Source of the DNA: Oscillospiraceae bacterium
GTDB lineage: Bacteria > Bacillota > Clostridia > Oscillospirales > CAG-382
Assembly: GCA_015064895.1 (NCBI GenBank)
Contig: SVRI01000001.1
Span: forward strand, 127,619-191,618
Length of the DNA: 64,000 nt
Direction: 5' to 3'
Shown: positions 46,185-61,484 of the stretch, in pieces
Numbering within the stretch: the stretch's first letter is position 1
Layout of the letters: each line of letters begins with the position of its first letter
Notes under the pieces: generated by a model
What the model saw: only the letters and a program-made list of their open reading frames with translations
What the model was told of the DNA's origin: nothing
The model's database searches: none
Translations under genes and position numbers: made by a program

Positions 46185-47042
46185 TTATTTTTTATCAAAC
46201 AAAGCACGTCTTTCGGTAGAGTGACGCATCATCTTTCTCATACCGTCAATGTCTTCTTCTTCAAGCATGTTCTTAAGTTCATTGAACTTATCTATAAACA
46301 GATTCATCTGTTCGAGAAGAGGTTTTTTGTTTGCCACAAACAGCTCACTCCACATAAGATCGTTGATTCTTGCGATTCTTGTAAGATCCCTGAATGAGTC
46401 ACCCGTGAATTTCTCCATGTTCTCCTTGTCATTGCATGTCATAAGCGTAATGGCAATACAATGGGTAAGCTGTGAAAGAAATCCTATCATTTCATCGTGC
46501 TCTTCGGGGGACAGGGTTGTGACGTTGGAAAAACCGAGAAGCTTTCCCAACTCAAGACATGTGCTTATTGCCTCGGGTGTGTTTTTGTCGGTGGGGGTTA
46601 CTATATAGTTCGCACCGATGAAAAGCTTGTCGGTACTGTTTTCAACTCCCGACACTTCACGTCCTGCCATGGGATGTGCCGCTATAAACTCAACATCGGG
46701 ACGAAGCATATTTTGAATCTGATATACAATACTTCCTTTTACACCCGTGACGTCGGTTATAAGAGCACCGCTTTTGAGAAGGGACTGGTTTTTTTCAATC
46801 CATTCCACAAACACATGGGGATAGAGTGCAAAGATTACAAGATCTGCTTCTCCTATTATTCTTTCATCAAGCTCTGTTGAGCCTTCGTCGATAATGTTTT
46901 CTTTAAGTGCATAGTCAATAGAGGTTTGCTCAAGGGTTATGGCACTTATATGGAATCCGAATCTTTTCAGCACCTTTGCATAGCTTCCGCCGAGAAGACC
47001 GAGACCTACTATGAGTATTCTTTTGCTGACATCTACTATCAT
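46185..47042 (-). CDS. tyrA: Prephenate dehydrogenase
   Basis: A 285-residue NAD(P)-dependent enzyme converting prephenate to 4-hydroxyphenylpyruvate for tyrosine synthesis. The Rossmann motif is GLGLLGGS (13-20), and the substrate region has FIAAHPMAGREVSGVENS with the conserved HPM(A)G histidine. There is no fused chorismate mutase or ACT domain, so allosteric control by tyrosine may be absent, which makes the operon attenuator more important. The ATG overlaps the aroA stop (ATGA). It is the last gene of the operon. Confidence 0.93.
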   Translation of the reverse strand: MIVDVSKRILIVGLGLLGGSYAKVLKRFGFHISAITLEQTSIDYALKENIIDEGSTELDERIIGEADLVIFALYPHVFVEWIEKNQSLLKSGALITDVTGVKGSIVYQIQNMLRPDVEFIAAHPMAGREVSGVENSTDKLFIGANYIVTPTDKNTPEAISTCLELGKLLGFSNVTTLSPEEHDEMIGFLSQLTHCIAITLMTCNDKENMEKFTGDSFRDLTRIARINDLMWSELFVANKKPLLEQMNLFIDKFNELKNMLEEEDIDGMRKMMRHSTERRALFDKK

Positions 47043-48241
47043 GATAATTCTACCTCTGCTCCAAGCCGTATTATTTCTTCAAAGAAGGAAGGATAGCTTT
47101 TTCTTACGGCCTGTGTACCGTTTAATACACCGCCCGTCTTTGTGAGTATAACGGACATTGCCATAACAATACGGTGGTCATTATGACCGTCGATGGGAAT
47201 GCCGCGATACTCGAGCGATTGCTTTGGAACGGTGATTGTATTGTCGCCGAAAACAAGTCCTTTGCCGAGCTTTGAAAGTTCAGCGTGCATTGCAGCACCC
47301 CTGTCGCTTTCTTTTGCCTTTAGTCTGTCTGTTCCCGTAAAAACCGCACCGTTTTTTAATGCCGCAAGGGCAAAGAGCACGGGACCAAGGTCGGGACAGT
47401 CGGAAATGTCAAGGGTAGGGGTACCGTCTGAAATCATTTCAAAGTACTTGCCGTACACCTTGTCCCCCTGAAGACTGTCGGGGCAAAGGTTTCCTATTTC
47501 AATTTGCGATCCTATATGATTGAAGGCATCAAGAAAAGCCGCATTGGAGTAGTCTCCTTCAATTTTGCCCGAAAAGCCGTTCATTTCTGATGCTTTGATT
47601 ACGATTGTATATTTGTCTGTCAACTCGACATCTGCTCCAAAGGATTTCAGTGCCGAAATTGTAAGATTGATATAAGAAGCACTTTCAAAGGGCGGGATTA
47701 TTTCAATGCACGAGTCTTTGCCGAGATACACCAGGGCAAAAATGAGCCCCGTGATGAACTGACTGCTGATATTGCCGTGTATCTTGTATGTGCCGCTTTG
47801 AAGATTCCCGCAAACGGTTACGGAGTTTTTGTCCTTTTTGAATGTAAAGCCTTTTTCGTGGCAAAGCTCTTCATAAATGCCAAGCGGTCTTTCAAACAGA
47901 CGCTCACTGCCAAGAAAAGTAACCTCTTTACCGAGACACAGTGCAAGAGGGATAAAGAAACGAAGGGTGCTTCCGCTTTCTCTGCACTTGAGAACGGGCT
48001 TTTCCACCTTCATAAACTCCGAAGAATCAATCGTGACAATATCTTCATCCGTTGTAATATGTGCACCAAGTGCTCTAAGACAATCGATGCTTGCAAGGAT
48101 ATCCTCGCTGTAATCGACACCCGAAAGAATGCATTTTTCTCCCGAAAGAGCGGCACCGATAAGATATCTGTGTGCCATGCTCTTGGATGGAGGTGCATCT
48201 GCTTTTCCGTGTAATACACACCTTTTGAATGTTGCTGTCAT
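47039..48241 (-). CDS. aroA: 3-phosphoshikimate 1-carboxyvinyltransferase (EPSP synthase)
   Basis: A 400-residue two-domain enzyme joining PEP to shikimate-3-phosphate. N-terminal PPSKSMAHRYLI carries the SKS and Arg residues for substrate binding, ESGSTLRFF is the second binding loop (here Ser replaces Ala of the common NAGTA/ESGT form), and DGHNDHRIVMA the C-terminal catalytic loop. Slightly shorter than the usual 425-430. Both ends overlap neighbours by ATGA junctions, so translation is coupled. Confidence 0.94.
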   Translation of the reverse strand: MTATFKRCVLHGKADAPPSKSMAHRYLIGAALSGEKCILSGVDYSEDILASIDCLRALGAHITTDEDIVTIDSSEFMKVEKPVLKCRESGSTLRFFIPLALCLGKEVTFLGSERLFERPLGIYEELCHEKGFTFKKDKNSVTVCGNLQSGTYKIHGNISSQFITGLIFALVYLGKDSCIEIIPPFESASYINLTISALKSFGADVELTDKYTIVIKASEMNGFSGKIEGDYSNAAFLDAFNHIGSQIEIGNLCPDSLQGDKVYGKYFEMISDGTPTLDISDCPDLGPVLFALAALKNGAVFTGTDRLKAKESDRGAAMHAELSKLGKGLVFGDNTITVPKQSLEYRGIPIDGHNDHRIVMAMSVILTKTGGVLNGTQAVRKSYPSFFEEIIRLGAEVELS

Positions 48242-48675
48242 TTTTTTACGGTTTCCTTTGTTAAAAAGTCAATTGCTTCAAGATATCCGTCTGTCCCGTG
48301 ACCTGTAATCGTTTTAACGCAGGCAAGACGGATATAGCTTATCTGTCTGAAGTCCTCACGTTCCTCAACCTTTGAGATATGCACTTCAACCGTTGGGATA
48401 CTGACGGATTTTACGGCATCAAGAATTGCAATGCTTGTGTGGGTATAAGCACCGGGATTTATGACAATACCGTCGGCATTTCCGTATGCTTCCTGTATCT
48501 TGTCCACAAGAGCACCCTCGTGGTTGGATTGGAAAGTCTCAACCTCCACACCGTTTTTGTCACAGTGGTTGTGTATTTTTTTCACAAGATCCGCATATGT
48601 TTCCTTGCCGTAATGATCGGGCTCTCTTATGCCGAGCATATTGAGATTGGGACCGTTTATAACAAGTATCTTCAC
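48238..48675 (-). CDS. aroQ: 3-dehydroquinate dehydratase, type II
   Basis: A 145-residue dodecameric dehydratase. NGPNLNMLGIREPDHYG holds the catalytic R17 and Y22; NPGAYTHTSIAILDA, VEVHISKVEERE and the terminal TGHGTDGY complete the active site. Length is typical (about 145-150). It shares 4 bp with aroEK upstream and with aroA downstream. Confidence 0.95.
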   Translation of the reverse strand: MKILVINGPNLNMLGIREPDHYGKETYADLVKKIHNHCDKNGVEVETFQSNHEGALVDKIQEAYGNADGIVINPGAYTHTSIAILDAVKSVSIPTVEVHISKVEEREDFRQISYIRLACVKTITGHGTDGYLEAIDFLTKETVKK

Positions 48676-49919
48676 AGTATCAGCTCCATTCGTTTGTTGA
48701 GGATATATTCGGCTTCTTCTTCCGGCGTTTCCATATCGGGAACAATTACATCTGCTGTTGCATTGTATATATCCATTCTTTCGTTATACAGCTTTTTGAG
48801 TTTATCCTCGGTATCCGATAGGGGTCTGTCATCGGTTGCAACAAGTCTTGAAAGACTTGCGTTTATAAAGAACAGCTTACCGTTTCGTTTAAGATACCGT
48901 ACATTTTCCGGACGTAGTATTGCACCGCCGCCGGTGGATATGATTTTGCAGCTGTTTGATGAAACATCTCTTATAACTTCTGTTTCAAGATCACGGAAGT
49001 ATTTTTCTCCCTTTGATGCAATCAGTTCTTTTATGCTGCAGCCGCAACGTTTTTCAATTTCCGTATCTGTATCGACAAATTCGTATCCGTCAATGTCAAT
49101 AAGCTTGCCGACCGTACTTTTGCCGCTGCCGGGCATCCCTGTAAGGACTATGTTTTCCTTTGATGCATAGACCGAGGCAAACACTTTATCAGCCGTATCC
49201 ATGTCTATTTCAGTATCAAGGAATTTTTCAACTGCCGCAACTGCTTGCATGACAAGCATGTAAAGACCGCCTTCGGCCTTTAAGCCTCTTTCTTTTGCAT
49301 CGAGTATGAGGTTTGTGCAAAGGGGATTGTAAACGGCATCCGCAATTCCTTCGAGCATGTCAAAATGAGAAATGTCCAAAGGCTTTGATTCACAGTCGGG
49401 ATACATGCCCGAGGGGGTTGTGTTGATGATTATTTCTGCATCGCTGTGAAGAACTGCCGCATCATCATATGAGATAAATTCATCTGTTTTTGTGCGGCTT
49501 ACCGTCAGAACGGTTGAAGCACCCATGTCCGATGCCACAACTCTTGCGGTTTTGCTTGTGCCGCCCGTACCCAACACCAACACCTTTTTATCTTTGAGGT
49601 CAAGCCCTATACGTTCAATAAGCCTGCTCATGCCGTAATAGTCGGTGTTGTAGCCGAAAAGAATACCGTTTTTATTGACTATGGTGTTTACGGCACCTAT
49701 TCTTTTTGCTATATCGCTTACAGAGTCGAGATAGGGAATGACGGTTTGCTTGTAAGGTATTGTCACATTGATTGCTTCAAAATCCTTTTTCTCGAAAAAA
49801 GACGGTATTTCATCTTCTGTAAGTTCAATAAGCTCATATTCATAATCGGCAAGATGAGAGTGAATCTCTTTTGAAAAGCTGTGGGTGAGCTTTTTGCCGA
49901 TACATCCGTATTTTTTCAT
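48672..49919 (-). CDS. aroE-aroK: Fused shikimate dehydrogenase - shikimate kinase
   Basis: A 415-residue bifunctional protein. Residues 1-250 are AroE: shikimate-binding SFSK, NVTIPYK with catalytic K57, GYNTD with D93, NADP motif GTGGTSKTA (117-125) and the C-terminal LYMLVMQAVAAVEKF. Residues 255-415 are AroK: Walker A GMPGSGKST (261-269), DTDTEIEKR, ISTGGGAIL and the DDRPLS lid. It should carry out two consecutive steps, 3-dehydroshikimate to shikimate to shikimate-3-phosphate. RBS AGGTAA. No frameshift is seen, so this is a true fusion. Confidence 0.95.
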   Translation of the reverse strand: MKKYGCIGKKLTHSFSKEIHSHLADYEYELIELTEDEIPSFFEKKDFEAINVTIPYKQTVIPYLDSVSDIAKRIGAVNTIVNKNGILFGYNTDYYGMSRLIERIGLDLKDKKVLVLGTGGTSKTARVVASDMGASTVLTVSRTKTDEFISYDDAAVLHSDAEIIINTTPSGMYPDCESKPLDISHFDMLEGIADAVYNPLCTNLILDAKERGLKAEGGLYMLVMQAVAAVEKFLDTEIDMDTADKVFASVYASKENIVLTGMPGSGKSTVGKLIDIDGYEFVDTDTEIEKRCGCSIKELIASKGEKYFRDLETEVIRDVSSNSCKIISTGGGAILRPENVRYLKRNGKLFFINASLSRLVATDDRPLSDTEDKLKKLYNERMDIYNATADVIVPDMETPEEEAEYILNKRMELIL

Positions 49920-49939
49920 TTGTTTTTTACCTGCTTTGT

Positions 49940-51028
49940 TTATTTAAGCCAGTCTGTGCCGTAACGCATTGCCAACGCATCGCACAATACGATTGCAGTC
50001 GCCGCATCCTGTACGATTCTTGCTCTGTGAACGATGGCGGGGTCATGTCTGCCCTTTGCTTCAAGAACCGCATCTGTCATGTCCTTGAAGTTTATTGTGT
50101 CCAGAGCTTTGAATATGGTGGCTGTGGGCTTAATTGCCGTCCTGAAAACAATGGGCATACCGTTGGTGATACCGCCGTTGATACCGCCGTTGTTATTTGT
50201 CTCGGTAATTGCTTTGCCGTCTTGTATTCTGAATGGATCGTTGGCAGTGCTTCCTCTCATATCGGATATAGCAAAGCCTTTGCCGAATTCTATGCCTTTA
50301 ACGGCAGGAATTGAGAACATCATATGTGAAAGCATGCTTTCAATCGAATCAAACCAAGGCTCGCCTACACCTTCAGGCATGCCTATAACGGCAGTTTCGA
50401 GAATGCCTCCGACGCTGTCGCCTTCGGATGCCGCTTCGATAATGGCATTTACCATGTCGTTTTCACACTTGTCATCAAGCACGGCAAAGGTTTTCTTGTT
50501 TACTGCGTCAATATCTTGTTTGAAATTGTCAAAATCTCTGTCATTGATACATGCACAGCGTTTGACATGTGTTCCGATATATATTCCTTTCTTTTCAAGG
50601 GCACATTTGCATACAGCACCTGCCGCAACAAGAGCTGCGGTAATTCTGCCGCTGAAATGACCGCCGCCGCGGGAATCCTGATATCCGTGATACTTGCACT
50701 CAGCAGTATAATCGGCATGAGAGGGGCGGGCAAGGGTTTTCATTTCGGAATAGTCGCCGCTTTTTACGTTTTCGTTGGGAATGAGAATGGTAAGGGGCGT
50801 GCCGGTAGTTGTATTGCCGACAATACCGCTTACAATTCTGTACTCATCCTTTTCCTTTCTCGGGGTTGATATTTTGCCGTCTGGACGTCTGAGGGTAAGC
50901 ATATGGGCAATGTATTCGTTGTCAATCTCAATTCCCGGTGCAAGTCCGTCAATGACTGCTCCTATATATTCGCCGTGGCTTTCACCAAAGAGGGTTACAG
51001 CCACACTGTATCCGAATGTATTCTTCAT
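49940..51028 (-). CDS. aroC: Chorismate synthase
   Basis: A 362-residue FMN-dependent enzyme that makes chorismate from EPSP. GESHG (15-19), the LTLRRPDGKISTPRKEKDE segment, SHADYTAECKYHGYQDSRGGGHFSGRITA (signature in parts: RGGGHFSGR), and GSTANDPFR near the flavin site are all present. ATG 51028 is preferred over TTG 51037 because AAAGG lies 9 bp upstream of it; it starts right at the end of aroB with a 6-bp gap. Confidence 0.95.
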   Translation of the reverse strand: MKNTFGYSVAVTLFGESHGEYIGAVIDGLAPGIEIDNEYIAHMLTLRRPDGKISTPRKEKDEYRIVSGIVGNTTTGTPLTILIPNENVKSGDYSEMKTLARPSHADYTAECKYHGYQDSRGGGHFSGRITAALVAAGAVCKCALEKKGIYIGTHVKRCACINDRDFDNFKQDIDAVNKKTFAVLDDKCENDMVNAIIEAASEGDSVGGILETAVIGMPEGVGEPWFDSIESMLSHMMFSIPAVKGIEFGKGFAISDMRGSTANDPFRIQDGKAITETNNNGGINGGITNGMPIVFRTAIKPTATIFKALDTINFKDMTDAVLEAKGRHDPAIVHRARIVQDAATAIVLCDALAMRYGTDWLK

Positions 51029-51033
51029 ACTTA

Positions 51034-52047
51034 TCAACCTTTCAGACAGCTTTTTGCCATCCCGATTACATCGAGACAGTTCATTTTCTTCATTTCAAAG
51101 CTGCCTATTTCGTTTACTGTTATTACCGTGACGGTGTCTCCGTCGGTTTTTTTGTCATGGAATGCTGCGTTTGTAATCTTTTCCCAGTCATATTCCATTT
51201 CGCGGTAAAGATTGCACTTTTCAAGTACTTTTATTACTCTTTCGCGTATTTCTTCACCGCACATGGGTATCATGCCGAGAGCTACACATTCACCGTGGTA
51301 GAGTTTTTCGGCCCCTTGACTGCTTTCGATGCCGTGTCCTACCGTGTGACCGAAATTGAGCACCTTGCGAAGACCTGATTCCTTCTCGTCTTGCTCAACA
51401 ACATTCTTTTTAATATTGAGGGAACGGATTATTATTTCGTCCATGTTTTGCTCGATATCTTTGTTTTCAAATATGTCAAACAGCTCTTTATCGCTTGTAA
51501 GAGACACCTTGACGGCCTCGGCAAGTCCGTTGGAAATCTGCCTTTTGTCGAGTGTTGCCAGAAGTTCAGGGTCAATCAGCACCTTTTTAGGCTGATAGAA
51601 TGCTCCGACAATATTCTTTACACCGCCGAAGTTTACGGCTGTTTTGCCGCCGATTGAAGAATCAATCTGCGAAAGAAGGGTTGTGGGGATGTTATAAAAA
51701 TCAATTCCTCTCATGTAGGCAGATGCCGCAAAGCCCGAAAGGTCTCCGACAACACCGCCTCCGACTGCAACGACGCAGTCATTTCTTGAAAAGCCGTTGT
51801 CGAGCATTGTTTGAAGCAGTTTTGAGAACACCTCAATGCTCTTGGAGCCTTCTCCCTGTTCGACAGTACAGATTATACCGGTTTTACACATATCGCATAC
51901 TGTTTTTGCATACTTTTCGGGAACACCTGTATCGGTTACAACCAGAACACGCCTGTCGAGATTCAAATGTCTGTTTGCTTGTGCAAGAACATTTCGTTCT
52001 ACAATTATATCGTAACTGTCCTTGCCGAGATTCATATGTATTGTCAT
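51034..52047 (-). CDS. aroB: 3-dehydroquinate synthase
   Basis: A 337-residue NAD- and metal-dependent cyclase turning DAHP into 3-dehydroquinate. GGGVVGDLSGFAASAYMRGI is the NAD/substrate motif, TTLLSQIDSSIGGKTAVNF the catalytic loop, and GLAEAVK plus LNFGHTVGHGIES contribute Glu and His metal ligands. ATG 52047 (MTIHMN) is chosen because AAGG precedes it at a usable distance, whereas ATG 52056 would abut that site; the true start could be either. It lies about 10 bp after pheA. Confidence 0.95.
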   Translation of the reverse strand: MTIHMNLGKDSYDIIVERNVLAQANRHLNLDRRVLVVTDTGVPEKYAKTVCDMCKTGIICTVEQGEGSKSIEVFSKLLQTMLDNGFSRNDCVVAVGGGVVGDLSGFAASAYMRGIDFYNIPTTLLSQIDSSIGGKTAVNFGGVKNIVGAFYQPKKVLIDPELLATLDKRQISNGLAEAVKVSLTSDKELFDIFENKDIEQNMDEIIIRSLNIKKNVVEQDEKESGLRKVLNFGHTVGHGIESSQGAEKLYHGECVALGMIPMCGEEIRERVIKVLEKCNLYREMEYDWEKITNAAFHDKKTDGDTVTVITVNEIGSFEMKKMNCLDVIGMAKSCLKG

Positions 52048-52058
52048 ATTCTTCATCC

Positions 52059-53147
52059 TTATATTTCCGTATGGGGAGAAAATGTTCCCGCAACCTTGAG
52101 CCTGTCACATACCTTGCCAAGCTCGTCAAGCATCTTTGCACCGTTTTCGCTGTTTACCGTACCGTCTATTTCTATGTAGAAATAGTACTGCCATGAATGT
52201 TTTTTCATGGGACGGCTGCGAAGGGCTGTCATGTTGAAGCCGTGTTTACCTATAATGCTTACGGCATTTGCCAGTGAACCTGCTTCATGCTTAACGGTGA
52301 GCATAAGTACTGTGCTTGAAAGTGATGGAGATGCTGCACGTGATTTTGAAAGAACGGCAAAGCGGGTGGTGTTTTCACCGCTTTTATTGATATTGGCTTC
52401 AATTACCTTCAGATTGTAAAGCTCAGCCGTTTCAATGCTTGCGATTGCTCCGTAGGATTTGTCATTCAGATTTGCCACCGACTTTGCGGCAAGGGCTGTG
52501 TTGTTTGCTTCTTCCGTTTCAAATCCGCGCATTTTGATGTAATCGTGACATTGGCTCAGTGCCTGCGGATGGCTTGTTACCTTTTTTATATCATCAACCG
52601 TAGCACCGGGAATGCCGAGAAGATTCTGATGAATCTCAAGCTCGTAAATACCGTTAATGTAGAGGTTGCCCGAAAAGATAAGGTCGATTGTCTGACCGAC
52701 TTCACCTGCGTAGCTGTTCTCAATCGGAAGTACGGCAACATCGCTTTCGCCGTTTACTACCGAGTTGTATGCCGCCTTGAAATCGCTGTAGGAAATACGG
52801 TTGCCGTCGGGAAAAATTCTGCCTGCGGCAATGTGTGCAAATGCACCTTCAACTCCGCTGTATGCGACCTTTAGACCGTTCTGCAGACGGTGCTGATATG
52901 CACGGGACACCGACATCATGTGTTTGAGATAGTCGATGTAATAACCCTTGAGCACTTCATCTTCAACGAGTACCGAGTTTTTTTCCACAACCTCAGCCTC
53001 ACGCTTTGTGTCAAGGATCGGCAGACCGTACTCTTTCTTGTGTTCATAAACAAGCTCGGCGGCTCTCATTCTCTTGACAAACAGTTCTGCCATCTGAGCG
53101 TCCACTTGATTTATGATTTGCCTTGCTTCTTCCAGTTTGTTACTCAT
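52059..53147 (-). CDS. pheA: Bifunctional chorismate mutase / prephenate dehydratase (P-protein)
   Basis: A 362-residue enzyme. Residues 1-90 are an AroH/AroQ-type chorismate mutase helix bundle (QVDAQMAELFVKRMRAAELVYEHKKEYGLPILDTKRE). Residues 105-275 are the dehydratase (AYSGVEGAFAHIAAG, VLPIENSYAGEVGQTID, and TRFAVL with the catalytic Thr). The last 80 residues are an ACT domain for phenylalanine feedback (TVLMLTVKHEAGSLANAVSIIGKHGFN). RBS AAAGGTGAG. It follows DAHP synthase by 24 bp. Confidence 0.95.
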   Translation of the reverse strand: MSNKLEEARQIINQVDAQMAELFVKRMRAAELVYEHKKEYGLPILDTKREAEVVEKNSVLVEDEVLKGYYIDYLKHMMSVSRAYQHRLQNGLKVAYSGVEGAFAHIAAGRIFPDGNRISYSDFKAAYNSVVNGESDVAVLPIENSYAGEVGQTIDLIFSGNLYINGIYELEIHQNLLGIPGATVDDIKKVTSHPQALSQCHDYIKMRGFETEEANNTALAAKSVANLNDKSYGAIASIETAELYNLKVIEANINKSGENTTRFAVLSKSRAASPSLSSTVLMLTVKHEAGSLANAVSIIGKHGFNMTALRSRPMKKHSWQYYFYIEIDGTVNSENGAKMLDELGKVCDRLKVAGTFSPHTEI

Positions 53148-53171
53148 TTATACTCACCTTTGTTGATTTTC

Positions 53172-54200
53172 TTAAAGCTTGTCTGCGATGTCGAGGATAA
53201 GCTGCTCGGTCTTTTCCCAACCGAGACAGGGGTCGGTGATGGACTTGCCGAATACATGTTCATCTGTGCCCTGAGCACCGTCCTCAAGGTAGCTTTCTAT
53301 CATAAGTCCCTTTACAAGGCTCTTGATGTCGGAATTTTGATTTCTGCTGTGAACAATGTCCTTTGCAATACGAACCTGTTCAAGGTACTTTTTGCCCGAG
53401 TTGTTGTGGTTGGTGTCTACAATTACAGAGGGGTTTACGAGATTTGACTTTTCGTAGAGTTCCTTTACTCTGAGCAGGTCTTCGTAGTGGTAATTTGAAG
53501 CACTTCTTCCTGCGTAGTCAACATAACCTCTGAGGATTGCGTGGGAATAGGGATTGCCGTCGCTTGTTACTTCCCAGCCTCTGTAAAGGAATGTGTGGCT
53601 CGACTGTGCCGCAACGATGGAGTTCATCATAACACTCATATCGCCGCCTGTGGGATTCTTCATGCCTACAGGAACGCTGATACCGCTGGCTGTGAGTCTG
53701 TGCTGCTGATTTTCAACGGAACGTGCACCAACGGCAACATATGAAAGAAGGTCGGAAAGGTAGCGGTAGTTTTCGGGATAGAGCATTTCGTCGGCACATG
53801 AGAAATCGTAATCGCGAAGTGCTGCAAGATGAAGCTCTCTGATTGCTACTATACCCTTGTACATATCGGGTTTTGCTTCGGGGTCGGGCTGATGAAGCAT
53901 ACCCTTATATCCCTGACCGGTGGTTCTTGGCTTGTTTGTATAGATACGGGGAACAATAATGATTTTGTCATTAACCTGCTCCTGAATTTTGCGAAGACGG
54001 GAAATATATTCAAGCACGGGTTCCTTGTGGTCTGCAGAGCAGGGGCCGATAACAAGAATAAATTTGTCGGACTTGCCTTCGAACACCGCCTTTATGCTTT
54101 CGTCACGTTCTGCCTTTACCTGTTCCATGCGTTGTGTTAAGGAAAATTCTTTTTTAACCTCCTGAGGGATGGGAAGTTTTCTGTGGAAGGTCATTGCCAT
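53172..54200 (-). CDS. aroF: 3-deoxy-7-phosphoheptulonate (DAHP) synthase, AroF/G/H type
   Basis: A 342-residue class-I-alpha DAHP synthase, the first enzyme of the pathway. VIGPCSADH is the PEP/metal-binding motif; PRIYTNKPRTTGQGYKG, GARSVENQQHR, VGMKNPTGGD and VDTNHNNSGKK complete the active site. Length (about 350) fits AroF/AroG/AroH, more often met in proteobacteria than the AroA(beta) type of bacilli. ATG 54200 is chosen with GAGGT upstream. It is the first enzyme gene behind the attenuator. Confidence 0.94.
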   Translation of the reverse strand: MAMTFHRKLPIPQEVKKEFSLTQRMEQVKAERDESIKAVFEGKSDKFILVIGPCSADHKEPVLEYISRLRKIQEQVNDKIIIVPRIYTNKPRTTGQGYKGMLHQPDPEAKPDMYKGIVAIRELHLAALRDYDFSCADEMLYPENYRYLSDLLSYVAVGARSVENQQHRLTASGISVPVGMKNPTGGDMSVMMNSIVAAQSSHTFLYRGWEVTSDGNPYSHAILRGYVDYAGRSASNYHYEDLLRVKELYEKSNLVNPSVIVDTNHNNSGKKYLEQVRIAKDIVHSRNQNSDIKSLVKGLMIESYLEDGAQGTDEHVFGKSITDPCLGWEKTEQLILDIADKL

Positions 54201-54244
54201 TTTTTGAGTACCTCGATTCTGAAAATAAATGTTTTGCTTGTGAT

Positions 54245-54296
54245 AAAATAAAAAGTCCGCACCTCTAAGCCTAAAAAAGCATAGCAAATGCGGACT
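54245..54296 (-). terminator. Attenuator terminator of the aromatic operon
   Basis: On the minus strand AGTCCGCA (54289-54296) pairs with TGCGGACT (54254-54261) around a 27-nt loop and is followed by TTTTATTTTA. The 5' arm overlaps a small self-complementary CGGACAGTCCG, which can act as part of an alternative fold. It lies about 26 bp after the leader-peptide stop. Confidence 0.82.
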
Positions 54297-54321
54297 GTCC
54301 GTTTTTATCCGACCAAAGGAA

Positions 54322-54396
54322 TTAATCCTCGGAAATCACAGAAGACGGGCAGCCCTTTTTAAAATAATAAAAGTAAAAATAAAACTTGTTTTTCAT
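54322..54396 (-). CDS. Aromatic leader peptide, 24 residues
   Basis: A short ORF with AAAGGAGG upstream of its ATG (54394-54396) and TAA at 54322-54324. Residues 5-12 read FYFYFYYF: eight consecutive Phe or Tyr codons, four of each. Such runs occur almost only in leader peptides of amino-acid operons, where ribosome stalling at scarce charged tRNA prevents the terminator from forming. With the terminator at 54245-54296 and the promoter at 54432-54460 this forms a complete transcription-attenuation module that responds to both Phe and Tyr. Confidence 0.88.
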   Translation of the reverse strand: MKNKFYFYFYYFKKGCPSSVISED

Positions 54397-54431
54397 TATT
54401 TTTCTGCCTCCTTTGTGATTTGTTGTCATAA

Positions 54432-54460
54432 AGTATATCACGTTAATTTGATAAAGTCAA
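54432..54460 (-). promoter_or_regulatory. Promoter of the aromatic amino-acid operon
   Basis: On the minus strand TTGACT, 17-bp spacer, TATACT, about 36 bp ahead of the leader-peptide start. Confidence 0.82.
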
Positions 54461-56049: not shown

Positions 56050-58434
56050 CTAATCAGTCATAAGCCCATACTTGATCTTTACCCTCTCAATTTTCCCGAC
56101 AAATGCCTCTGCCAAGACAAACAGAAACACCACCGTTGACAGCGAATGTATAAGGTCAAAGGGAAAACCTGCGACAAACGAAGAAAGCAAAAGCTTTGCC
56201 GAAGGCTCGGGGTTCATCATTAGTACCGATGCGGGATTCAGTATTCCGCCGTAAATGAGGAATGTTGCAAAGAAGCCGAAAATACATAAGGCCGTCTTTG
56301 ATTTTTTTACCTTACAAGAATCGAATACAAGTCCCGAAACAAGACCGATAAGTGCGAATGCCGTCATCTGCCACACAGTCCACGGACCTTGCCCGAAGAA
56401 AAGGTTTGAAACGAATGCAGATACTGCACCCACAATCATTCCCGATTCATACCCAAGACAAGCACCGGAAATTATGATGATTGCCGCCATAGGCTTGAAC
56501 TGGGGTACCATAAAGAATATGCTTCGTCCTGCAACGCATATTGCAGAGAGAACGGAGAGCGTTACAATTTCTCTTGCCTTTGGCTTTCGTCTTTCGAACA
56601 TAAGTAAAAAAGGTAAAAGTATTTCTGCAATTACGATACCGCTTACAAGATAATACTGCCTGTCAGAAAGGTGCTTTATGCCGAAATAAACAGTAAACGG
56701 AACGGCAAGCAATACAAAAATAAGCGGTAATAAGGACTTTAAGGTGAATCCCTTTGAGTCCTTTTCTTTTTTGCTTATAGGTGGTAATTTATCGCCGTCA
56801 GAATTATCGCTGTCATTCTTTTCAGACTCAAAATTCTTACCGCCCAAAGCAGAAATTGCATCATTTACCGTTACTGCCGTGGGAAGAATATTATTTGCCA
56901 TTCGTACGGTGTCTGTGGTGTAATAGTTCATCTTTGTAAAAAAGCTTTTCGGCGTTACGACAGATGAAATTTTACCGTCAAACATAAGAGCGCACCTGTC
57001 GGAAAAGGAAGCGCAAAACTCTATGTCGTGGGACACATTTATAATTGTTATGCCGTCATTTTTAAGCTTGTGCAGGAGCTTTCCGAAGCTTTCCTTGAAA
57101 TGAGCATCCATACCCTTTGTCGGTTCGTCAAGAAGGAGAATTTCGGGATTTGTAAGCAGTACCTTGCAAAGTGCCGCACGTTGCTTTTCACCGCCCGACA
57201 GGTCATAGGGGTGCTTATCAAGAAGGTTCAGAATGTCACAAAGCTCGGCTGTTTTCATAACGGCGTTTTCGTTCCTTGTGATTTCAAAAAGGTCAGTTCT
57301 TACAGTATCTTTGACAAACAGGCTTGTCACATCCTGCGGCATATAGGATATTCTGCCGTCTGTTTTCACCTTTCCGCAATATCCTTTGCGAATACCCAAA
57401 ACTACAGAAAGAAGCGTTGATTTACCCACACCGTTCGAGCCGAGGATTGAAAGTATTTCGCCTTTGTATGCGGTAAGACTTATACCTTTCAGCACGTCCC
57501 CTGAATTCTTTTCGTATCTGAAATGGACTTCGAAAAGAGAAACTGCTTTTTTTGTGGTGTCGGGCTGTGTGTCGGCTTTTATTCTTTCGGGGTAAAGAGT
57601 GTGATTTTGTGAATACTCTGTAAGCCACGTCTTGCCGTCTTTGACGGATATGGGATAGTCGCTGCCATTCTCAATACTTGCATATATTCTCATCTGCGGC
57701 GGGAAGGCGGAGAACATTTCGTGCCTTTCTTCAAAAAGTGTATTTGCAACCGCACTTACACTTCCGTCAGCAAATATTCTGCCGTCATCCATAACAACAA
57801 CCCTGTCGGATATGGGAAGTACCTCATTTAGCCGTTGCTCCGACATTATGACGGTGACTCCCATTTCGGTGTTTACCCGCTTTACCGCCTCTATAAAATG
57901 CTTTGCGGAAATGGGGTCAAGGCTTGAGGTCGGCTCGTCAAGGATTAACACTTTCGGCTTCATTACCATAACAGATGCAAGACATACAAGCTGTTTCTGT
58001 CCGCCCGAAAGCTCGCTTACTTTTTTGTGAAACAGGTCAGAAATGCCGAAAAAGGAGGATGTTTCGGAAACACGAAGGCGTATTTCATCTTCGGGAAGTC
58101 CCAGACTTTCAAGACCGAATGCAATCTCGTGCCACACCTTGTCACAGCACAGCTGAAACTCGGGATTCTGGAAAACAAAACCTATGTTTTGTGCGTCCTC
58201 TCTCGGTGAAAGCTCACGGAGATTTCTGCCGAGATATATAATACTTCCGCTTGTTTTGCCTTCAGGTGAAAGAGAGCTTTTGAGAAGACGGAGAAGTGTT
58301 GTTTTACCGCATCCCGATTTTCCGCAAAGGGTTATAAACTCGCCGTTGTTTATGGTAAAACTCAAACCACTTATAGCATTTTCGCCACTTTCGGGGTAAG
58401 CAAAGCTTAGATTCTCGACCTTAAATATTTCCAT
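56050..58434 (-). CDS. Fused ECF transporter: EcfA - EcfA' - S component
   Basis: A 794-residue protein with two ABC ATPase domains and a membrane S domain. ATPase 1 has Walker A GKSGCGKTT (38-46), LSGGQKQLVCLASVMVM and LILDEPTSSLDP. ATPase 2 has GSNGVGKST (about 335), LSGGEKQRAALCKVLL and ILLLDEPTKGMD. From about residue 590 six hydrophobic helices follow, including QFKPMAAIIIISGACLGYES and FFGQGPWTVWQMTAFALIG, an S-component pattern. All but EcfT is therefore on one chain. ATG 58434 has GGGAGGTGA and overlaps ecfT by 28 bp. The likely ligand is a corrinoid, judged from the neighbours. Confidence 0.87.
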   Translation of the reverse strand: MEIFKVENLSFAYPESGENAISGLSFTINNGEFITLCGKSGCGKTTLLRLLKSSLSPEGKTSGSIIYLGRNLRELSPREDAQNIGFVFQNPEFQLCCDKVWHEIAFGLESLGLPEDEIRLRVSETSSFFGISDLFHKKVSELSGGQKQLVCLASVMVMKPKVLILDEPTSSLDPISAKHFIEAVKRVNTEMGVTVIMSEQRLNEVLPISDRVVVMDDGRIFADGSVSAVANTLFEERHEMFSAFPPQMRIYASIENGSDYPISVKDGKTWLTEYSQNHTLYPERIKADTQPDTTKKAVSLFEVHFRYEKNSGDVLKGISLTAYKGEILSILGSNGVGKSTLLSVVLGIRKGYCGKVKTDGRISYMPQDVTSLFVKDTVRTDLFEITRNENAVMKTAELCDILNLLDKHPYDLSGGEKQRAALCKVLLTNPEILLLDEPTKGMDAHFKESFGKLLHKLKNDGITIINVSHDIEFCASFSDRCALMFDGKISSVVTPKSFFTKMNYYTTDTVRMANNILPTAVTVNDAISALGGKNFESEKNDSDNSDGDKLPPISKKEKDSKGFTLKSLLPLIFVLLAVPFTVYFGIKHLSDRQYYLVSGIVIAEILLPFLLMFERRKPKAREIVTLSVLSAICVAGRSIFFMVPQFKPMAAIIIISGACLGYESGMIVGAVSAFVSNLFFGQGPWTVWQMTAFALIGLVSGLVFDSCKVKKSKTALCIFGFFATFLIYGGILNPASVLMMNPEPSAKLLLSSFVAGFPFDLIHSLSTVVFLFVLAEAFVGKIERVKIKYGLMTD

Positions 58435-59291
58435 TTTCTCACCTCCCATAGTTCAATTATTACAGGTGTCATACATAGTAAAAAGTAGCTGACAAAAACG
58501 CTGATTGAATACATCGTAATCGGCGTGGACTTAATCACAGGATAAAAGGAAAAATCCGTCTGCCCCGAGATATTTCCAATAATTACATATGTGCCGAGAA
58601 ACAGTATGTACAAAAGCACAGCTATGTCACGCTTTTCAATGCGGTAGTTGGAAAAGGATGTTCTTTTTCCCGTTCCGTAGCCCCGTGCTTTCATACTGTC
58701 GGCTGTATCAATTGCATTTTCAAGCGCCCACGTTACGGTTATCGAAAGTATTCGCAGGGCGTTTTTGATTTTCCTGAAAACACCCTTTTCGTCAAGTCCC
58801 TTACCGATGCACTTCTGAACTTCCGCTGTCTTTTTCAGTCTTTCGGAAAACAGTGGAACAAATCGCAGTGTCATGGAAAGAATAAGTGACAACGACGGTA
58901 TAACTTTGCCAAACAGGTACATAAATTTATCGCTTGTCATAACAGAGCTGAAACAGGAGAAATAGCACAGCACCGACACAAGACTTGCAGCGGCACAAAG
59001 TCCGTAGATTATGCTTTCCGAGGTTAGCGGATTTCCGTCAGGCAGATACCCGAGTATTGTCATTCCCTCGTGGTTGAAAAGAGGATTGATAAGAGAAGTC
59101 AGAATCATTGCGGGGAGCAGAAACGCAAGGCTGTGAAGTGCCTTTTTGCCGTTTATAATACACATATACAAAAAAGAGCAGAACAGCGATAAGGCGAGCA
59201 TCAGCGGATGCATCCCTGTACAGGCAAGACCTAAAACATACGCAAAGTATGAAAAATTCACCAATGGGTGATACATCTTAAATTCATTCAT
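58407..59291 (-). CDS. ECF transporter transmembrane component EcfT
   Basis: A 294-residue membrane protein with about six helices. The coupling-helix motifs are SMTLRFVPLF...KKTAEVQKCIG and ADSMKARGYGTGKRTSFSNY, which contains the A-R-G ATPase-contact motif of EcfT/CbiQ. ATG 59291 follows CGGAAAAG; the reading frame upstream overlaps the DUF4430 gene by 8 bp. It joins the fused ATPase/S protein encoded next. Confidence 0.9.
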   Translation of the reverse strand: MNEFKMYHPLVNFSYFAYVLGLACTGMHPLMLALSLFCSFLYMCIINGKKALHSLAFLLPAMILTSLINPLFNHEGMTILGYLPDGNPLTSESIIYGLCAAASLVSVLCYFSCFSSVMTSDKFMYLFGKVIPSLSLILSMTLRFVPLFSERLKKTAEVQKCIGKGLDEKGVFRKIKNALRILSITVTWALENAIDTADSMKARGYGTGKRTSFSNYRIEKRDIAVLLYILFLGTYVIIGNISGQTDFSFYPVIKSTPITMYSISVFVSYFLLCMTPVIIELWEVRKWKYLRSRI

Positions 59292-59859
59292 TGTCTTTTC
59301 CGTTTCTTTGTGAGTAGTCTCCGCCGATGTCTCTGCCAAGGTCGCAGGTGTAAATCCATTCTACCTTGTCGTGTTCCTTCAGCTTGTAACGTGAACAGCC
59401 GTAGTTGGGAAACCAATCATTTACCTTGTACATCCATCCCGAAAGCTCTCCGCAGTCAAATTCGTAGATGTTTGCAATACCCTCAATGTAGGCGCTTTCG
59501 TACATCGGTACTTCGTTGAACTCCATATGTATTTTGTTCTTCTTCATTTCACGGCGAAGAAGGTTGAACACCGTTTCTCCCTCGTAGAATACAACCTCTG
59601 TTTCACCAAGGATTACACCGTCTTTCGGTACAATGTCTGTCTTGTCTTTGTCAAAATCGGACATATTATCAAGGATTGTATCGCATCTTACCGAGAGAGT
59701 ACAGGTAAGCTCTTTATCTGTTATTACTGTTTCCTCAGCACTTACAGGCTCGGGTTTACCCTCGGGAACTTCTACAGGTACAGGCTCTGTATTGTCATTA
59801 CAGGATGTTAAAGTAAATATTACAAGTAAAGTTAAAAATAAAACTGTTATTCTTTTCAT
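59284..59859 (-). CDS. DUF4430 surface lipoprotein
   Basis: A 191-residue lipoprotein: signal peptide with lipobox LTSC (C20), a Pro/Glu-rich linker (residues 21-45), then one DUF4430 domain with TVFNLLRREMKKNKIHMEF, AYIEGIANIYEF and LSGWMYKVNDWFPNYGCSRYKLKEHDKVEWIYTCDLG. The W-M-Y-x-VN...D-x-V-E-W-x-Y-T core matches the DUF4430 part of the large protein at 61485. By homology with the transcobalamin beta domain it may bind a corrinoid near the membrane and hand it to the ECF transporter. The ATG overlaps the previous stop (ATGA). Confidence 0.86.
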   Translation of the reverse strand: MKRITVLFLTLLVIFTLTSCNDNTEPVPVEVPEGKPEPVSAEETVITDKELTCTLSVRCDTILDNMSDFDKDKTDIVPKDGVILGETEVVFYEGETVFNLLRREMKKNKIHMEFNEVPMYESAYIEGIANIYEFDCGELSGWMYKVNDWFPNYGCSRYKLKEHDKVEWIYTCDLGRDIGGDYSQRNGKDNE

Positions 59860-61412
59860 ATACGATTTGCCTCTTTCAATAAGTTATAGAGCATATACGC
59901 AATTTCTCCTCGTTTTACCGCTTCTTTAGGATTTATTTTAATTGCCGAATCGTCAAGAATTCCTTTGTCATAACAGAAAGCAAGTCCTTCCTTTGCCCAT
60001 GTGGAAACGGTCTTGTAGTCGGTAAACTGCGACAGCACATTTCTTACGGCACTTTCGTTATAAGTTTTATCAATACCGAGGATTTTTGCACTTCTCTCTA
60101 CTATGACCGCCGCTTCTTCACGGGTAATTGTGCCGTTTGGGTTGAATCGGTTTTCAGACACACCCTTGATTATACCGTAATCATAAGCAGTACCCACAAA
60201 ACCGTAGTACCAGTCAGTTTTTTTCACATCAGAAAAGACATCTATTCCTTTTGCTTCAAGTCCGAGGGCTCTAACAGTAATTGTTGCAAATTCTGCTCTT
60301 GTCATGGTGGAATCAGGCGAGAAGGTATTTTCAGTCATTCCGTTTATTATGCCTCTTTGACAGAGTGCCTCAATTTCAGACTTATACTTGTGATTCTTAA
60401 TATCGCTGAAGGTTTTATTCGGGTACTTTATCCCGATTCTGTCACCGCCTGCATTATTGCCCAATATAGAAATACCGTCGCTCATATCGAAAAGCTTACT
60501 CTTTCCCGTCTCTAACCGTTTCAGACTTACAAGGGCATAAAAACCTTGCTCTGTTGACATAAGGTTTGATTCTTTGTCAGACTTTGTGTGCCTGAAGCCT
60601 TTTCCTTTTATGTGAAAATTCATAAGTGCATCAACTGCTGTCTTTCCGTTCTTGACAAACCTTGAATCTTTTTGGGATATACCAAGACTTGAAAGAGCAA
60701 CAATTACCTGAGATGTGCTTTCGGAGTATTCTCCAAAGCTTCCGTCGCTTTTTTGAATGCCGGAAAGATACGAAAGTCCCTTATCAACCGCCTGCTTCAC
60801 CTTGCTATTATCGGTATAAGACGAAAGAGCCGTCAGCACCATTGCGGTGATATCCACATCAGCTTCTTGCACCGAACTGTTAAGTGCCCATCCTCCCGAA
60901 GAAAGCTGTCTGGAAAGAATAAGGTCTATATATTTCGTTCTTATTTCGTCATTGTTATACTCTGCCGCATCAAGTGCAATAAGCGCCCATGAAGGACCGT
61001 TTATACCCTGCTTTATAACGCTGTCATAGTCAAGAAGCGGTGTTATGAGATTATATCCGCCAACATTTTCCGGATTCTTACCAATGGCACAAAGGGTGGT
61101 TACAACCCTTGAATACTCGGTGTACTTATTTTTACTGAGTACACCGTTTTTGTTTTTTACGTATTCTTCTACGTTGTCATAGTAGCTTTCATAGTAAGCA
61201 CTTGGTACATCAAGACAGCTTCTGGAGAGTCCCAGCACTGCCCATTCACCGCCGATTGAGTTTGGCACCGCTTCTTTTACCGTTTCAAATAAAAAACTAC
61301 CAACCGTCAATGTAAGGTTGTCAACTTTTTGCGAATAATTTTCAACAGCCTCTGCCGATATCCCAAAAACCACTATCAAAGACAAAAATACGCTTATTAT
61401 TCTTTTCATCAT
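59856..61412 (-). CDS. SLH-anchored protein with terpenoid-cyclase-like alpha/alpha repeats
   Basis: A 518-residue exported protein. After a signal peptide (1-23) come alpha/alpha-barrel repeats of the prenyltransferase/squalene-oxidase type, with QW-like motifs (SSGGWALN, KSDGSFGEYS) and DVDITAMVLTALSSY. Three SLH motifs fill about residues 335-515 (FSDIKNHKYKSEIEALCQRG, FSDVKKTDWYYGFVGTAYDYG, FTDYKTVSTWAKEGLAFCYD) and should bind cell-wall polymer. No active-site DxDD motif of real terpene cyclases is visible, so binding rather than catalysis is likely. The start is ATG 61412 or 61409, behind GGGAGC. Confidence 0.85.
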   Translation of the reverse strand: MMKRIISVFLSLIVVFGISAEAVENYSQKVDNLTLTVGSFLFETVKEAVPNSIGGEWAVLGLSRSCLDVPSAYYESYYDNVEEYVKNKNGVLSKNKYTEYSRVVTTLCAIGKNPENVGGYNLITPLLDYDSVIKQGINGPSWALIALDAAEYNNDEIRTKYIDLILSRQLSSGGWALNSSVQEADVDITAMVLTALSSYTDNSKVKQAVDKGLSYLSGIQKSDGSFGEYSESTSQVIVALSSLGISQKDSRFVKNGKTAVDALMNFHIKGKGFRHTKSDKESNLMSTEQGFYALVSLKRLETGKSKLFDMSDGISILGNNAGGDRIGIKYPNKTFSDIKNHKYKSEIEALCQRGIINGMTENTFSPDSTMTRAEFATITVRALGLEAKGIDVFSDVKKTDWYYGFVGTAYDYGIIKGVSENRFNPNGTITREEAAVIVERSAKILGIDKTYNESAVRNVLSQFTDYKTVSTWAKEGLAFCYDKGILDDSAIKINPKEAVKRGEIAYMLYNLLKEANRI

Positions 61413-61438
61413 TACGCTCCCGATTTATATCGAATACA

Positions 61439-61464
61439 GACAGCAGAAGATTGCTTCTGCTGTC
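61439..61464 (-). promoter_or_regulatory. Intercistronic hairpin between the two SLH protein genes
   Basis: A perfect 11-bp stem GACAGCAGAAG / CTTCTGCTGTC with a 4-nt loop and no strong T-run. It may protect the mRNA or act as a partial terminator. Confidence 0.6.
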
Positions 61465-61484
61465 CTATGCCATTAAAATAAGAT

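Follow-up and report, generated by a model that had tools for sequence, protein, structure and literature searches.

A probable ribosome-mediated Phe/Tyr attenuator at the head of a complete shikimate-Phe-Tyr operon in an Oscillospiraceae bacterium

The window analyzed here, a 64,000-nucleotide stretch of an Oscillospiraceae genome, carries an eight-gene operon on its minus strand whose enzymes cover all steps from entry into the shikimate pathway to phenylpyruvate and hydroxyphenylpyruvate. Intergenic gaps are 24 nt or less, and several of the genes overlap. Pfam matches identify the genes as follows.

53172..54200 (start ATG at 54200), minus strand: aroF, class I DAHP synthase (PF00793, E = 1.2e-46)
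52059..53147, minus strand: pheA, chorismate mutase-prephenate dehydratase, with a C-terminal ACT domain at 21.8 bits, under the cut-off of 27
51034..52056, minus strand: aroB, 3-dehydroquinate synthase
49940..51037, minus strand: aroC, chorismate synthase
48672..49919, minus strand: aroE-aroK fusion, shikimate dehydrogenase plus shikimate kinase
48238..48675, minus strand: aroQ, type II dehydroquinase
47039..48241, minus strand: aroA, EPSP synthase
46185..47042, minus strand: tyrA, prephenate dehydrogenase without an ACT domain

These matches bear out a first-pass annotation that had read the locus as a complete aromatic operon containing pheA and a tyrA lacking the ACT domain. The same annotation had described a promoter, a ribosome-binding site, a 24-residue open reading frame (ORF) with eight aromatic codons (FYFYFYYF), and a terminator ahead of the DAHP synthase gene. 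All of these could be located, on the minus strand like the operon, with promoter to terminator running from 54460 to 54245. In order of transcription, the elements and the RNA segments that they contain are listed here.

54432..54460, minus strand: sigma-70-type promoter, TTGACT - 17 nt - TGATATACT, with 10 of 12 consensus bases and a TG extension (-35 TTGACT at 54460-54455; TG-extended -10 TATACT at 54437-54432)
54404..54421, minus strand: segment 1, AAAUCACAAAGGAGGCAG, which contains the leader's ribosome-binding site and pairs with segment 2
54412-54407, minus strand: leader Shine-Dalgarno sequence (SD) AGGAGG, a strong ribosome-binding site
54322..54396, minus strand: leader ORF MKNKFYFYFYYFKKGCPSSVISED, 24 residues, stop codon included in the coordinates (start ATG at 54396; stop at 54324-54322), kept in 46 relatives
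54361..54384, minus strand: sensor, eight consecutive Phe/Tyr codons (codons 5 to 12)
54333..54355, minus strand: segment 2, GGGCUGCCCGUCUUCUGUGAUUU, which forms the protector with segment 1 or the antiterminator with segment 3
54309..54332, minus strand: small hairpin at the leader stop codon, nested in the antiterminator between segments 2 and 3
54292..54302, minus strand: segment 3, ACGGACAGUCC, common to antiterminator (2:3) and terminator (3:4)
54245..54296, minus strand: intrinsic terminator (3:4), AGUCCGCA...UGCGGACU plus UUUUUAUUUU

The aromatic codons read, in order, UUU UAU UUU UAC UUU UAU UAU UUU. Phe/Tyr runs of eight or more were absent from 40 first-order Markov copies of the window, and runs of six or more arose in these copies at 0.075 per window, against exactly one in the real sequence. 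A simple terminator scan missed the leader terminator because its stem is long and interrupted; in the RNA fold it is clear, as an 8-bp outer stem (AGUCCGCA/UGCGGACU) and an inner stem followed by UUUUUAUUUU, with the T-tract at 54254-54245. The leader RNA folds 3.7 standard deviations below its dinucleotide shuffles.

A DAHP synthase search of 84,980 genomes returned 80 loci. At 46 of these, aroF is directly preceded, at a distance of about 80 to 300 nt, by a leader with the pattern M..(F/Y)5-8..(K)GCPS. A promoter comparable to that in the window is found in many relatives. The attenuator reading of the first-pass annotation would have lost its footing had relatives lacked the aromatic run and the alternative hairpins; these 46 of the 80 keep both, and the helices covary.

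Three mutually exclusive helices can form in the leader RNA: the protector (1:2), the antiterminator (2:3), and the terminator (3:4). Segment 2 begins two codons past the aromatic run and encodes the GCPSSVI tail, and the part of it that receives segment 3 is GGGCUGCCCGU; in its alternative role, segment 3 opens the terminator stem. The minimum-energy fold of the free leader consists of 1:2 plus the terminator, and in most relatives 1:2 hides the leader SD.

On an alignment of 47 leaders, 94.7% of the cells in the antiterminator are paired and 6 of its 10 pairs show double changes; for the terminator the values are 92.8% of cells and 7 of 8 pairs. None of 500 shuffles reached the result for either helix. 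We then used a covariance model (R1) built from 1:2 and 3:4 only, which gathered 82 leaders. Although this model does not contain 2:3, 9 of the 11 antiterminator pairs show double changes on the resulting alignment (0 of 500 shuffles did as well), and every register slid from this one is far worse. Of the 22 pairs in helices 1:2 and 3:4 taken together, 19 show double changes on these 82 leaders, an alignment fitted to those helices. Compensated pairings can be read directly in L061 (GGUCGUU with AACGACC), L150 (CUUUCUG with CAGAAAG), and L153 (GGACUACC with GGUAGUCC). One position of the antiterminator is a conserved A-C mismatch, unpaired in 59 of 74 leaders, which may keep this helix from excess strength.

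A column-wise test of the protector was marginal on the first, gappy 47-leader alignment. Pairing energies computed after exchanging partners among leaders favored native partners: segment 1 pairs with its own segment 2 at -20.2 kcal/mol and with swapped ones at -17.6 (0 of 2,000 permutations), segment 2 with its own downstream region at -23.1 versus -20.5 kcal/mol, and the arms of the stop-codon hairpin with each other at -9.1 versus -6.6 kcal/mol (0 of 2,000 permutations), the relatedness of the leaders being only partly corrected for in these swaps and in the shuffles. A strong 1:2 helix is missing in three leaders, namely L049 and the second copies of L012 and L024.

Different parts of the leader appear to be conserved for different reasons. 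In the 47 leaders, 336 of 345 codons in the run specify Phe or Tyr with varying third bases (TTT 144, TTC 26, TAT 104, TAC 62). Among species Phe and Tyr change places within the run, yet both residues occur in every leader, and the share of Tyr shows half the variance seen when leaders are shuffled by column (P = 0.002). Segment 2, in turn, is intact as RNA and lies in a different frame in L060 (7285-7460), L140 (1501-1672), and L145 (504-681), whose tails read KAARLL, RAARLM, and RAARIL in place of KGCPSS. The tail is therefore conserved as RNA, and only the Phe/Tyr run as codons; a role for the GCPS tail at the peptide level is ruled out by these out-of-frame leaders. Pfam and NCBIfam profiles had no match to the leader peptide at E ≤ 10, in searches whose power is low for such short queries.

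The locus thus combines an ORF, its SD, and a cognate codon cluster, all read from the sequence, with a terminator before the first gene, an antiterminator that excludes the terminator and is so placed that a stall would leave it free, and an upstream protector helix (weak in 3 of 47 leaders). We consider it very probable, on this comparative evidence, that the element works as a transcription attenuator of the ribosome-mediated type, with charged tRNA-Phe and tRNA-Tyr as its signals and transcription of the entire operon as its output. A ribosome would load on the leader once the SD has been transcribed and, when Phe or Tyr is short, would stall in the eight-codon run. Given the usual ribosome footprint, a ribosome whose A site has stopped anywhere from codon 5 to about codon 10 would leave segment 2 uncovered. 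With the stalled ribosome sitting between segments 1 and 2, the protector would not form, 2:3 would take its place, no terminator would follow, and RNA polymerase would continue into aroF. When both amino acids are plentiful, the ribosome would clear segment 2 and halt at the stop codon, leaving segment 2 behind it to pair with segment 1, which would also hide the SD; the freed segment 3 would enter 3:4 and terminate transcription. Without any ribosome, 1:2 should form too, and the operon would be off. In this scheme we infer the stalling, the coupling, and the sufficiency of either shortage alone, as well as the block of 1:2 by the stalled ribosome, which is an assumption in that segment 1 lies mostly behind the footprint.

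Folding of the growing transcript is consistent with this scheme. When a ribosome is placed in the run, 47 of 47 leaders have 2:3 as their best structure at the point where segment 3 has been completed; in the window leader this helix lasts until segment 4 has been made. Without a ribosome, the window RNA ends as 1:2 plus the full terminator; at the completion of segment 3, ribosome-free RNA also prefers 2:3 in 21 of the 47 leaders. Equilibrium folding of the full-length RNA with a masked ribosome gives the terminator as the minimum, and no antiterminator, at any ribosome position, so that the antitermination decision must be kinetic, as would be expected by analogy with other attenuators.

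The choice of Phe and Tyr as signals fits the metabolic setting. The window's own genome (98% complete) has no match to the anthranilate synthase N domain or to the chorismate-binding domain (PF00425; trpE, pabB, menF), whereas both domain searches found matches in 14 of 14 control genomes. With no chorismate-binding enzyme, chorismate has no visible exit except Phe and Tyr, which are therefore the sensible products to sense. Within the family, trpE occurs in 0 of 16 leader-bearing genomes and 5 of 47 others, a difference that is not significant alone. The first-pass annotation had called dual sensing of Phe and Tyr logical, and the balance of Phe and Tyr codons and the missing chorismate-binding enzymes speak for that view, the latter more cogently than TyrA's lack of an ACT domain, to which the annotation had pointed. 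The genome has the full shikimate pathway and, from the tryptophan pathway, trpB alone, preceded by a T-box, which suggests indole salvage.

The leader is not confined to aroF. At six further loci the operon begins with pheA and ends with aroF, and the leader stands at its head, before pheA. It precedes a PLP-dependent aminotransferase (NCBIfam NF005305) at L142 and similar proteins at L143, L146, L147, L148, and L150, and at L093 it precedes a sodium/solute symporter with the run FYYYYYYF. This symporter leader and one of the aminotransferase leaders have nearly all-Tyr runs. All targets found serve aromatic amino acid supply, or plausibly so. Searching with R1 recovered the leader in at least 16 of the 63 genomes from the family and at least 22 of the 394 from the order; the class added a few more carriers, and 398 genomes sampled across the phylum gave no further case among the candidates scored. 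The carrier counts are lower bounds because about six candidates were scored per genome. In all, the leader occurs in at least about nine families, after removal of two false class-level matches, L158 and L159 (a repeat and a coding stretch).

At four loci, aroF is preceded by two complete leaders with their terminators, one after the other: L003 (792-1153), L012 (7607-7966), L015 (688-1038), and L024 (7590-7962). In L012 and L024 the downstream one of the two lacks the 1:2 helix, and its tail past the run is very short. Leaders at L160 and L161 (1501-1680), with the Tyr-rich runs RFFYYYYYYF and RFYFYYYYF, precede an ABC_sub_bind lipoprotein (PF04392); their helices are diverged or unrelated and their terminator is unrelated, and they could belong to yet another aromatic attenuator family, one that serves a TrpX-like transporter.

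Leader and operon appear to have traveled together. We compared the element (window positions 46185-54460) among the window's own genome (G000), one genome of another genus (G050), and three congeners (G055-G057). For PheS, the identity of the own genome is 100, 92, and 88% with the congeners and 68% with G050; for DAHP synthase it is 65, 65, and 69% with the congeners and 91% with G050, which also has the leader. R1 had no match in the three congeners, the aroF upstream regions of two of them, when read, had no recognizable attenuator, and an Rfam scan of the leaderless aroF upstream regions of relatives returned no family. In the aroF tree, the window falls in a large leader-bearing clade with scattered losses. 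Because aroF matches the other genus, PheS matches the congeners, and the congeners lack the leader, the simplest account of these comparisons would be that leader and operon were acquired together, across genera. Mis-binning of the contig is an unlikely cause of the mismatch, as the contig measures 364 kb and contamination of the genome is 0.03%. A contig binned as Treponema bryantii (L048, 4002-4172) carries the leader, here with a perfect terminator stem that differs from the others, and an aroF operon that groups within Clostridia; this is either transfer to a spirochaete or mis-binning.

In Bacillota, the usual device for reading uncharged tRNA is the T-box. It shares signal and outcome with the proposed attenuator but binds the tRNA directly and needs no translated ORF. 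A T-box or riboswitch at the locus was rejected: RF00230 has eight matches in the genome (L082-L089), six of them above the Rfam cut-off, and none lies here. By eye, the genes behind these matches are leuA/citramalate-synthase-like, a sodium symporter, ilvB, the lone trpB, pheS, phenylacetate-CoA-ligase-like, thrS, and serS. A T-box (at pheS) and a stalling leader hence coexist in this genome for the same tRNA-Phe. No Rfam family fits the leader region at gathering or relaxed thresholds; the best match, leu-phe_leader (RF01743), scored 25.2 bits against a gathering score of 70, and Phe_leader (RF01859) scored 14.1 against 55.

Some features of the leader could also be explained if the nascent peptide itself arrested the ribosome, as in TnaC, with free Phe/Tyr or another metabolite as cofactor; the RNA switch would be the same, and the signal would be something other than tRNA charging. 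A bulky aromatic run could, on general grounds, contact the exit tunnel, and six to eight codons exceed what codon sensing strictly needs. Arrest peptides, however, retain specific residues, whereas here the Phe/Tyr order varies, the residues upstream are unconserved, and the tail is frame-shifted in three leaders; Phe and Tyr numbers are moreover balanced, as codon sensing predicts. Arrest is thus improbable, and the three remaining explanations are considerably more so. That the ORF encodes a small functional protein, for instance in the membrane, and that the terminator ends an upstream mini-transcript while the operon goes unregulated, would agree with a hydrophobic peptide conserved in many species. 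It is very hard to reconcile with a tail kept as RNA and not as peptide, alternative helices that covary, complete tandem copies, and the leader's position in front of aromatic genes and operons.

Control of the terminator by another sensor RNA (a T-box, a riboswitch, or a protein-bound leader), with the ORF incidental, draws some plausibility from the six T-boxes above cut-off elsewhere in the genome, including those at pheS and trpB. We give it very little weight given that no Rfam family reaches its gathering score in the region, no T-box is present, and Phe and Tyr codons are kept while their third positions vary. Nor does it seem at all probable that control is exerted chiefly on translation, with 1:2 serving to hide the SD and effects on aroF arising through Rho or mRNA stability: the leader SD is indeed covered by 1:2 in most relatives, but a conserved intrinsic terminator with its U-tract stands before the first gene and the antiterminator covaries. 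Attenuation by a ribosome stalling at Phe and Tyr codons accordingly remains our preferred reading.

Among known systems, the proposed attenuator is closest in kind to pheL of E. coli pheA and the other classic leaders (trp, his, thr, ilv), with which it shares an ORF rich in the regulated codons, the triad of helices, and control over biosynthesis of its own product. It differs from pheL in having a mixed Phe and Tyr run where pheL has Phe, a protector arm that is the leader's ribosome-binding site and not the sensor codons, an extra stop-codon hairpin, an entire shikimate pathway under control, and a clostridial host. Upstream of Acholeplasma aroF, uORFC-13-1 has been predicted with a promoter, a ribosome-binding site, U-rich Phe codon(s), and an intrinsic terminator, and the speed of Phe incorporation was proposed as its signal; it comprises 24 sequences, at aroF only, with at least one Phe codon (PMC8632094). 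It resembles the window leader as an upstream ORF before aroF in a lineage related to low-GC Gram-positive bacteria, and its description, which is what we compared, mentions neither an antiterminator triad nor Tyr sensing, targets besides aroF, or transfer. The leu-phe_leader of Lactococcus (RF01743) is likewise a two-amino-acid leader in a Firmicute. Stalling leaders outside Proteobacteria and Actinobacteria include a His leader at Bacillus hisS*/hisZ paralogues (PMC2965389) and the leucine-rich attenuator of the Staphylococcus aureus ilv-leu operon (PMC5794164); in both, ribosome-mediated attenuation replaces T-boxes, with amino acids, genes, and sequences other than those here. The first-pass annotation had judged a stalling leader notable in Bacillota, whose aromatic genes are more often under T-boxes or TRAP; the hisS, ilv, aroF, and leu-phe_leader precedents qualify this, as do the T-boxes elsewhere in this genome. 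The open-access literature yielded no Phe/Tyr leader in Clostridia.

The leader is therefore a switch of a classic kind and apparently an undescribed family, set apart from uORFC-13-1 by description only. What sequence comparison makes notable is the predicted dual sensing, the SD-containing protector arm, the tandem copies, the likely joint transfer with the operon, and unusually good conservation. It would enlarge the repertoire of gut Clostridia, whose amino acid genes are generally taken to be under T-box control, by a well-supported attenuator family, and offers a candidate ready-made sensor RNA for Phe/Tyr limitation in anaerobes. It also provides a natural experiment in dual-codon sensing (the Phe/Tyr order drifts and the balance stays), in tandem attenuators, and in regulation inherited with an operon because the switch needs no protein of its own. 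Taken further, the data may describe one portable regulon switch, a dual Phe/Tyr RNA family of Clostridia that moves horizontally with its operon, has come to stand ahead of pheA, aminotransferase, and transporter genes, owes its tuning to the Phe:Tyr codon ratio, and in some species is doubled in tandem for a sharper response; we put this wider picture forward tentatively, as somewhat short of an even prospect.

Two other parts of the window drew attention. A lysine riboswitch (RF00168, 70 bits) lies at 1462-1634 on the plus strand. At 56050-63998, on the minus strand, an ECF-type transporter (a fused double ATPase plus S component, and a CbiQ-like T component) adjoins a lipoprotein with DUF4430 and a pair of SLH surface proteins, of which one has alpha-alpha toroid repeats and the other DUF4430. 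Toroid and DUF4430 resemble the two domains of transcobalamin/intrinsic factor, and by this analogy the cluster is possibly a surface system for corrinoid capture.
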